The position numbers were made by a program, and so were the translations under genes. A stretch of 36,074 bases of DNA, from positions 1-36,074 of the forward strand of contig CAMOXI010000015.1 of NCBI GenBank assembly GCA_946628965.1, in the 5' to 3' direction. The DNA comes from an uncultured Clostridia bacterium (GTDB lineage Bacteria > Bacillota > Clostridia > Oscillospirales > Oscillospiraceae). A model generated the notes under the pieces. It saw only the letters and a list, made by a program, of their open reading frames with translations. It was not told the origin of the DNA and did not search any database. Every line of letters starts with the position of its first letter. Position 1 is the stretch's first letter. Shown in pieces: positions 32,298 to 35,828 of the stretch.

Positions 32298-32323
32298 GGC
32301 GATCACCTCGCAGTCATCTTAGC

Positions 32324-32529
32324 ATAATAATCATCAGATGGCGAGAACAATCGTAAAAAACGATTGTTCTCGCTGCCAAACGACAAGTTTGGCAGCGAGT
32401 GATTCGATGAATCATTCGCCCGATGCTCATTGCAATGCGTGTAGGGCAAAACAGCCTGACTGTTTTGCTGCGCCGCAAAGCGGCGCGGTGAAAAGCTTTT
32501 GGGCTTTTCGCCATCATATAATCATTATA
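32324..32529. repeat. Array of seven abutting hairpins closed by an outer inverted repeat
   Basis: Outer arms 32324-32343 and 32510-32529 match at 16 of 20 positions as reverse complements. Between them hairpins follow almost without linkers: 32341-32373 (13 bp), 32374-32394 (8 bp, extendable to 11), 32395-32419 (11 bp with one G-U), 32418-32447 (weaker), 32446-32468 (9 bp), 32470-32486 (7 bp), 32487-32512 (10 bp with one G-U). No ORF fits. It could be a MITE-like element or a multi-branched RNA. Confidence 0.85.
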
Positions 32530-32554
32530 AAACGGGAAAAATGAACAGGGTGGA

Positions 32555-34528: not shown

Positions 34529-34582
34529 CCCCGCAGGAGGCGCTTTCCTTACAAAGCGCCTCCTGCGGGGATCACTGCTTTT
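34529..34582. terminator. Bidirectional terminator
   Basis: A perfect 18-bp GC-rich stem (34529-34546 with 34553-34570) with loop CCTTAC lies between convergent genes. On the minus strand the stem is followed by TTTCTTTG, and on the plus strand by ATCACTGCTTTT. Confidence 0.9.
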
Positions 34583-34598
34583 CGCCATCCTGTCATCA

Positions 34599-35828
34599 TT
34601 ATGCCATAAAGGCTTCGATCGCATCCGGATCCTTGATGATATCCCTGGACAGGACTTCGCAGCCATTCTCGGTGATCAGGAGATCATCCTCAATACGGAT
34701 GCCGATGGCCTCCTCATCGATATACAGTCCCGGCTCGTCGCTGATGACCCAGCCGGGCTGAAGCACGTCGCCCGCCAGAGAGATGTCGTGCACGTCGATC
34801 CCCATGGGGTGGCTCACGCTGTGCATATAGTACTTATTCACCTCAGAGACATCCCGGATCATGCCCATGGAAACCAGCCCCTCCCCCAGGACCTGACGCG
34901 CGATTTCGTTCAGGTCCTTTGTGGTGAGGCCCGGCCGTGCGGCCGCAGCGACCGCCTGATTCGCCTTGAGGACCAGCTCGTAGAGCTCACGCTGTCTCGG
35001 GCTGAACTTTCCGTTCGCGGGATAGGTCCTGGTGATGTCGCTGCTGTAGTTTTCATACTCTGCGCCAAGATCCAGCAGGATCAGCGAGCCATCCTGCACC
35101 TCGCAGTGGTTCGTTTCGTAGTGCATCATACAGCCGTTGCTGCCGGAGCCGGCAATGGTGGGGAATGCCTGGCGCTTTGCGCCCAGCCGTCTGCAGGTAT
35201 ATTCAAAGTCCGCCTGCACCTGGTATTCCATCATGCCCGGCTTCAGGTTCTTCATCACATATTCCAGGCCCTGACGGGTAATCTCCAGCGCCCTGCGGAT
35301 GCGCTCCACTTCTTCGGCGTCCTTCCGCTCCCGGAGCGGCGCGCAGGCCGTACGCAGATCCTTCAGGATCACGTGCGGATAGGCCTGTGCGAAGCGTTCC
35401 GCCATCACCAGGTTATAGTCCGGCAGATCGTTCATCCGGCAGCGGTACAGGTCAAAGTACGCCTGCTCCACACGAAGCCGCCCCATAAAGCTGCTGATCG
35501 CGCTTTCCAGGCTGTCCATATAGCGCACATCCTCGATCCCGGAGACCTGCCGGACTTCCTCTTTGGTGGGCATTTTTCCGGTCCACCGCTCAGACAGGGG
35601 ATCCGGCTCCTCGATGAAAAGGATCTCCCTGACGGCTTCCGCAGACTTGTAGGCCAGAAACGCCGTGTTTTCCCGCTCCAGCCCCGTCAGATAGAAGCAC
35701 TGGCTGTTGACCGCGAACTCGTGATATGCATCCTCGTTGCTATGGAGGGGGATACCGGCATAGGCGATCACCAGGGTATTCTCCGCCAGCGTCTGATACA
35801 GTCTGTCTCTATGTTCTGCAAACGACAT
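34599..35828 (-). CDS. pepP: Xaa-Pro aminopeptidase (M24B family)
   Basis: PepP removes an N-terminal residue before proline using a two-metal centre in the cytosol. The 409-residue protein has an N-terminal creatinase-like domain (1-170) and a pita-bread domain. The metal ligands are visible: LDLGAEYENYSSDITRTY (two Asp), HSVSHPMGIDVHD (His), and SDEPGLYIDEEAIGIRIED (two Glu). The ATG at 35826-35828 has AAAGGA upstream. The gene looks slightly less GC-rich than its neighbours, by eye only. It probably has its own promoter at 35915-35943. Confidence 0.94.
   Translation of the reverse strand: MSFAEHRDRLYQTLAENTLVIAYAGIPLHSNEDAYHEFAVNSQCFYLTGLERENTAFLAYKSAEAVREILFIEEPDPLSERWTGKMPTKEEVRQVSGIEDVRYMDSLESAISSFMGRLRVEQAYFDLYRCRMNDLPDYNLVMAERFAQAYPHVILKDLRTACAPLRERKDAEEVERIRRALEITRQGLEYVMKNLKPGMMEYQVQADFEYTCRRLGAKRQAFPTIAGSGSNGCMMHYETNHCEVQDGSLILLDLGAEYENYSSDITRTYPANGKFSPRQRELYELVLKANQAVAAAARPGLTTKDLNEIARQVLGEGLVSMGMIRDVSEVNKYYMHSVSHPMGIDVHDISLAGDVLQPGWVISDEPGLYIDEEAIGIRIEDDLLITENGCEVLSRDIIKDPDAIEAFMA

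Follow-up and report, generated by a model that had tools for sequence, protein, structure and literature searches.

A probable MITE-like mobile element of Oscillospiraceae with a body of two head-to-head three-hairpin units

A hairpin-rich intergenic segment from an uncultured Clostridia bacterium is probably a non-autonomous, MITE-like mobile DNA that is moved in trans and consists of two head-to-head three-hairpin units, joined at TCATT-GC-AATGA and bounded by short terminal inverted repeats (TIRs; ~21 nt). It lies in the 36,074-nucleotide stretch of an Oscillospiraceae contig analysed here (hereafter, the window). The element has those features of MITEs that were tested, and its covarying body of two cloverleaves is unusual. 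We found no description of such an element family in the open-access literature. Coordinates of all features are collected in Table 1.

Table 1. Parts of the element and inverted repeats of the window copy
Feature	Position	Strand	Remarks
Whole mobile element, AATAATC...TCATT (family consensus AATGA...TCATT)	32326..32526	+	six empty-site relatives
AT target dinucleotide, left copy	32324..32325	.	empty site in L235 is CATAAAA
AT target dinucleotide, right copy	32527..32528	.	same empty-site alignments
Unit A, three-hairpin cloverleaf with its own outer stem (AATAAtCATCAG ... CCGATGcTCATT)	32326..32431	+	
Unit A hairpin 1	32341..32373	+	8/13 pairs double-changed in family
Unit A hairpin 2	32374..32394	+	2/8 pairs double-changed
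Unit A hairpin 3	32395..32419	+	6/11 pairs double-changed
GC dinucleotide at A-B junction, TCATT-GC-AATGA	32432..32433	.	centre of weak fourth hairpin of initial annotation
Unit B, three-hairpin cloverleaf, inverted homologue of unit A	32434..32526	+	
Unit B hairpin 1 (initially the fifth)	32446..32468	+	5/10 pairs double-changed
Unit B hairpin 2 (initially the sixth)	32470..32486	+	3/7 pairs double-changed
Unit B hairpin 3 (initially the seventh)	32487..32512	+	5/11 pairs double-changed
Left TIR, ~21 nt, family form AATGATCATCGGATGGCGAAA	32326..32346	+	read from copies
Right TIR, family form AATGATTATATGATGGCGAAA on minus strand	32506..32526	-	read from copies
Inverted-repeat arms	32341-32354/32360-32373		
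Inverted-repeat arms	32369-32381/32387-32399		
Inverted-repeat arms	32395-32405/32409-32419		
Inverted-repeat arms	32446-32454/32460-32468		
Inverted-repeat arms	32463-32476/32480-32493		
Inverted-repeat arms	32487-32496/32503-32512		
Outer inverted repeat, 24-nt arms, 79%	32324-32347/32505-32528		

The initial annotation, made from the sequence alone, had described seven consecutive stems closed by an imperfect outer repeat between a NUDIX gene and a hydrolase gene. The stems and the repeat are indeed there, as the inverted-repeat listing and the folding energy indicate: the RNA fold of 32324-32529 reaches -103 kcal/mol, where shuffled sequences average -55.5 (sd 4.7; z -10.2), and 0 of 200 shuffles were as stable. 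The minus strand folds with a z of -11.7, and with DNA parameters 32326-32526 gives -64 versus -30.0 for shuffles (z -10.3). The named neighbours were also recovered, one as NUDIX (PF00293) and the other as a hydrolase that rests on a weak BD-FAE match (PF20434, 28.7 bits; cut-off 26.8). No transposase gene lies inside the 201-bp element, whose ORFs are mechanical only (67 and 68 aa, each overrunning one element end), and no Rfam family exceeded its gathering score in the window. An isolated right end of the element occurs elsewhere in the window (34577-34603, GCTTTTCGCCATCCTGTCATCATTATG), where its ATAATGA apparently forms the stop codon of a minus-strand M24 aminopeptidase gene.

Empty sites in relatives define the insertion. 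The NUDIX and hydrolase genes are adjacent in at least six genomes (G088, G073, G103, G083, G091, and G104), and all six of these relatives have an uninterrupted 17-nt spacing from which the element is absent, the window having the same spacing plus the insert. The empty-site locus that the initial annotation had proposed looking for was thereby found. When the window flanks were joined under a 2-bp AT duplication, zero net gaps remained in five of five comparisons (L235, L236, and L238 align with 0 gaps, and the gaps in L237 and L239 balance out), whereas in all five 2 net bases are left over under a TA model and 4 under a model without duplication; the sixth relative (L240) belongs to the spacing alignment alone and not to this comparison of gap models. 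At another locus, a filled site (L059) and an empty one (L125) are 96.8% identical, with 0 gaps under the AT model and 2 net bases left over under the TA model, and comparison of L019 with its empty site in L195 gave balanced gaps. These two pairs were the usable ones among 13 spanning alignments; the other 11 were left out of the count, three because they match within the element's own locus or to copies of that locus (L162 twice, L217) and eight as too diverged or gapped. A copy made of unit B alone (L025) is off by one against the empty sites in L253 and L249. This unit-B-only copy (L025 1500-1597) lies within TGTGCTATACT, which resembles a -10 promoter box, and it restores TATAAT at its left edge. 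Overall, the clearest of the empty sites agree with an insert of 201 bp that duplicates a 2-bp AT.

To the same end sequences belong the logos drawn from 146 of 197 elements, those in which ATGA and TCAT could be placed. The left-end logo reads T48% T62% A94% T94% A96% ATGA (141 left ends) and the right-end logo TCAT T81% A83% T86% A68% A52% (144 right ends). Combined with the AT duplication, these logos give TT-AT-AA as the target and AATGA...TCATT as the element.

The body of the element was resolved by covariation. In alignment A4, which comprises 28 full-length copies out of 56 loci, 96.9% of the 2288 cells of the two-unit structure are paired, and 36 of its 82 pairs (82 cells) are double-changed, a level that 0 of 500 shuffles reach. 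Slid versions of the structure are only 31.8-50.4% paired, a comparison that favours the two-unit structure because it was drawn from the same sequences on which it was scored. The two outer stems by themselves have 7 of 22 pairs double-changed (0/500 shuffles); that of unit A comes from RNAalifold with one pair added by hand and the boundary between hairpins 1 and 2 shifted, and that of unit B includes five inner pairs that de novo folding missed and that were added by hand. Covariance models place unit A at 32321-32434 (model R1, E 3.5e-34) and unit B at 32429-32533 (model R2, E 8.3e-29). Model R2 also matches unit A on the opposite strand (E 5.8e-12), and R1 matches unit B reversed (E 2.5e-12). 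These reversed cross-matches make the element a head-to-head pair, TIR-A-GC-B-TIR, in which the junction dinucleotide is GC in 27 of 28 aligned copies and GA in one.

Two parts of the initial drawing did not survive this analysis. Pairing in the all-enclosing stem reaches 90.4%, yet shuffles are as high in 327 of 500 cases (covariation score, 248/500), and the weak fourth hairpin, which is the junction palindrome TCATT-GC-AATGA, likewise does not covary (shuffles as high, 349/500; score, 284/500). Both the fourth hairpin as a conserved stem and a single radial fold as the conserved structure are hence rejected, the latter by its outer stem. The all-enclosing stem is the pair of TIRs, which are imperfect and mutually complementary but show no covariation. 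The radial, multi-branched form that had been drawn holds for the single window copy, whose RNA fold favours it over two units, whereas the family keeps two separate three-hairpin units. In this copy the unit outer stems are decayed and neither formed in the DNA fold: the outer stem of unit A, which covaries in the family, is mismatched, and the left outer arm of unit B has decayed.

We examined mismatches and gene context across the family. Among 121 copies and 79 pairs, a count that leaves out three pairs that are mostly G.T, there were 118 G.T, 107 A.C, and 154 other mismatches (G.T versus A.C, p 0.51). Constraint on one RNA strand is expected to favour G.T; the near equality of G.T and A.C therefore indicates that inserted copies decay without strand preference. 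Watson-Crick double changes occupy 315 cells, many of them common to lineages. Pairing therefore seems to be kept at the DNA level, and we read the selection as acting on the spreading element as DNA rather than on the inserted copy. Template switching, rather than selection for folding, could be an alternative source of covariation in DNA palindromes. The neighbouring genes of 111 elements are divergent in 34 cases, convergent in 30, and tandem in 47, usable neighbours being mechanical ORFs of at least 100 aa, and six elements lie inside an ORF of that length. This context fits intergenic insertion and not a fixed leader or terminator role.

The element is dispersed within and beyond its own genome. 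That genome (2.18 Mb, 75% complete) carries seven further near-full copies at 82-87% identity, together with fragments. BLAST found the element in 10 of 40 related genomes including its own, all in one genus, and among 102 same-genus genomes the covariance models matched unit B in 56 and unit A in 51; matches per genome are not copy numbers here, as 37-38 candidates were scored per genome and each model matches both units. The A-B junction pattern, a sample biased to intact junctions, occurs in at least 117 stretches of GTDB contigs. Among the 80 junction matches listed are uncultured Oscillospiraceae, Ruminococcaceae, and other Clostridia, with one labelled Rikenella. The copy on a contig of this Rikenella-labelled MAG (L142) perhaps reflects a binning error, perhaps transfer. 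IMG/VR held no exact match to the junction pattern, and the window element was unmatched among plasmids. A 37-bp plasmid match to the G034 element (Bacillus, E 0.06), in a region whose incomplete gene table lists no insertion sequence, was judged chance, as were five 21-bp phage matches (E 0.7). In L024/L032, a different repeat of ~165 bp with ends GTAAACG...CGTTTAC (G021:C9 ~47093-47260) seemingly sits within the loop of unit A hairpin 3 in one copy of the element.

Some of this movement was recent. G283 has five copies at unrelated sites, of which the pairs 248/252 and 237/238 are identical, and the copies in L141 and L173, two contigs of one genus MAG, are 99.0% identical; near-identical copies at separate sites point to recent movement. 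The non-autonomous mobile element that the initial annotation had listed as an option is supported by the many dispersed copies and the empty sites at the window locus. Covarying stems in copies at unrelated loci, the test set beforehand, were found, and in place of a lone copy with unconserved stems, which was to have refuted the reading, copies are many and their stems covary.

Diverged elements built on the same plan occur in other genera and other families of the order. An order-wide search matched unit B at E <= 0.001 in at least 11 of 394 genomes, including its own, from 8 genera, a lower bound as 10 candidates were scored per genome; in a phylum-wide search of 398 genomes with strict filters, the own genome alone matched. 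Distant copies were read in G034, G228, G283, G341, G280, G379, and G461 (G370, G156, and G315 were left out). The upstream flanks of the first six seem to hold another three-hairpin unit, whose end is a dinucleotide followed by AATGA or a close variant; this second unit is less clear in G461. Given no structure, RNAalifold returned the same two three-hairpin units from ten G034 copies (A6), and in this other family 12 of 75 pairs are double-changed. G034 also has one-hairpin derivatives that retain both ends. In L313 (G280:C12 10303-10607), two near-identical unit-B copies flank a unit A in a tandem arrangement that adjoins an apparent tRNA gene.

In the usual picture of a MITE, the sequence between the TIRs is indifferent. 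Here that sequence covaries, on a plan common to different families, so the fold seems to matter for spreading. We hypothesize that a putative trans-acting recombinase or transposase recognises and pairs the AATGA ends, cuts with a 2-bp stagger, and integrates the element at AT. Spreading elements would have to extrude or fold as DNA, which would keep the units paired in spreading lineages, and after insertion copies would decay without strand preference. A non-AT inner junction would keep both units moving as one. The parts of this scheme seen directly are the element's ends, duplication of 2 bp, a symmetrical target, and recent copies; the data do not choose among a DDE transposase, a Y1/HUH enzyme acting on single strands, and a serine recombinase.

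We searched for an autonomous partner. With a strict end pattern, no gene-bearing element with these ends was found in 1.42 Mb of partly overlapping loci; four ends were left unassigned, of which two are copies (L234, L250), one is a copy minus hairpin 1 (L132), and one adjoins an N run (L196). In G034, where 40 of 51 candidates were scored, the partial matches inspected are truncated, lone-end, or one-hairpin derivatives and none was recognised as an autonomous copy. G280 yielded no autonomous candidate in 20 stretches (~365 kb of ~1.2 Mb).

A distinct possibility, if short of an even chance, is an ordinary double-stranded MITE of a DDE insertion sequence, with ~21-bp TIRs and a 2-bp duplication, whose hairpins are left over from an old head-to-head duplication and ride along as passengers. 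Its TIRs would be symmetrical, as they are in two families, and the 2-bp duplication, the symmetry of TT-AT-AA, and the loss of internal hairpins while ends remain are all in keeping with it. Passengers should not covary, however, and the six internal hairpins and both outer stems do; the two-unit fold recurs in another family, and the strict end search over 1.42 Mb of partly overlapping loci gave no gene-bearing element with these ends. The TA-duplicating kind misfits the empty sites, and IS630 (RUP-like), which duplicates TA, was rejected as the mobiliser on that ground. IS30 was rejected too: its transposase occurs in 9 of 102 genomes, 4 of 56 element-positive versus 5 of 46 element-negative (p 0.73).

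Recognition by shape would account for the mobile element differently, and we put it forward tentatively as an unlikely reading. Each cloverleaf would have to fold, single-stranded or as a cruciform, for an enzyme to make cuts 2 bp around AT; the non-AT dinucleotide would lock the composite; and the plan would be kept across several families despite extensive sequence change.

Mobilisation as single strands in the manner of REPs and REPINs, by a RAYT/TIRYT-type Y1/HUH enzyme that recognises folded hairpins, appears quite unlikely, even though a hairpin substrate would account for the covariation and TIR-flanked RAYT-like genes have been described (PMC3733652). RAYT-like genes (alignment A5) are present at E <= 1e-15 in 48 of 102 genus genomes, 36 of 56 element-positive versus 12 of 46 element-negative (Fisher p 1.5e-4, phylogeny uncorrected), a correlation that possibly comes from common phylogeny. 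At 19 RAYT-like loci, unit-model matches did not rise above noise (the two in L287 have E values of 1 and 5.5), and no TIR match had <7/21 mismatches. In 20 of the 56 carriers no such gene was detected, including G116 (99% complete) and G115 (97% complete, with 35 model matches), and the symmetrical target also speaks against this enzyme class. As the mobiliser, RAYT-like genes were therefore rejected, being correlated with the element yet not adjacent and missing from some carriers. The diverged RAYT-like genes in L276-L280 and L282-L295 have variable in-frame stretches (e.g., VGAIHESP, RRGDPCGRP, GPSGTPAPT), perhaps palindromic repeats translated within the protein. IS200 was rejected as well: 13 loci gave no unit-model match at E <= 10, and at nine where the Y1 ORF and flanks were inspected (two being the same copy) the ends look unrelated. 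The IS200 copies in L265, L267, L268, L270-L273, L275, and L281 mostly lie directly downstream of a terminator-like hairpin and T run.

We regard as improbable a serine recombinase that crosses over at a 2-bp AT core, for which TCATT-AT-AATGA would be the crossover site of a circle and an internal non-AT core a dead junction. Resolvase cuts leave 2-nt overhangs (PMC9943657), the target consensus is TT-AT-AA, one tandem pair, in L079, is joined at TCATT-AT-AATGA, and in the copies read the internal dinucleotide is GC, GA, GT, TC, or CA, never AT. Against this enzyme, a palindromic core gives no orientation control, and an IS607 transposase, rejected as a candidate, exceeded the cut-off in 0 of 102 genomes; weaker matches in 73 genomes are mostly long serine-recombinase frames, too common to inform. 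Finally, a structured RNA or cis-regulatory element retained for host function, another of the initial options, could draw on the very stable fold and the covariation but is very improbable: all six relatives that keep the gene pair lack the element, its copies show no clear bias in orientation towards neighbouring genes, G.U mismatches do not exceed A.C ones, and Rfam gave no match in the window.

Uncultured Oscillospiraceae of gut and rumen commonly carry this MITE-like family, which offers ready pairs of empty and filled sites and points to a mobilising enzyme that can be sought by co-occurrence. Its likenesses to known systems are partial. In IS30-type abutted dimers, a 2-bp duplication is made and copies are joined with a 2-bp spacer; the present element resembles them in both its 2-bp duplication and the 2-bp spacer between joined copies, but IS30 transposases do not co-occur with it. 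A review of bacterial MITEs describes long stem-loops formed by pairing of the 5' and 3' ends, with TA at most termini (PMC2229807). Like the Correia/NEMIS, ERIC, and RUP elements it covers, the present element is <~250 bp, gene-free, dispersed, and highly paired, with TIRs and a target duplication; unlike those elements as the review presents them, it duplicates AT and has a body of two inverted, covarying three-hairpin units, and its partner insertion sequence was not found. BOX of Streptococcus pneumoniae is likewise modular, strongly folded, and dispersed, with modules lost or multiplied; compared by description, BOX is boxA-boxB(n)-boxC, whereas here two homologous cloverleaf units are inverted (PMC3049150). 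REPINs and REPs share paired inverted palindromic units, a short spacer, and probable movement in trans (PMC3116915, PMC3733652), and RAYT-like genes exist in the element's genus as a parallel; relative to REPINs and REPs as characterised in these sources, the present element is larger and multi-hairpin, makes a 2-bp target duplication, and was not found beside the RAYT-like genes at 19 loci. CIR of Caulobacter, unlike the other MITEs in the review, has two independently folding arms and a linker, as does the present element; a CIR arm is a long inverted repeat where ours is a three-hairpin cloverleaf, and the hosts are unrelated (PMC2229807).
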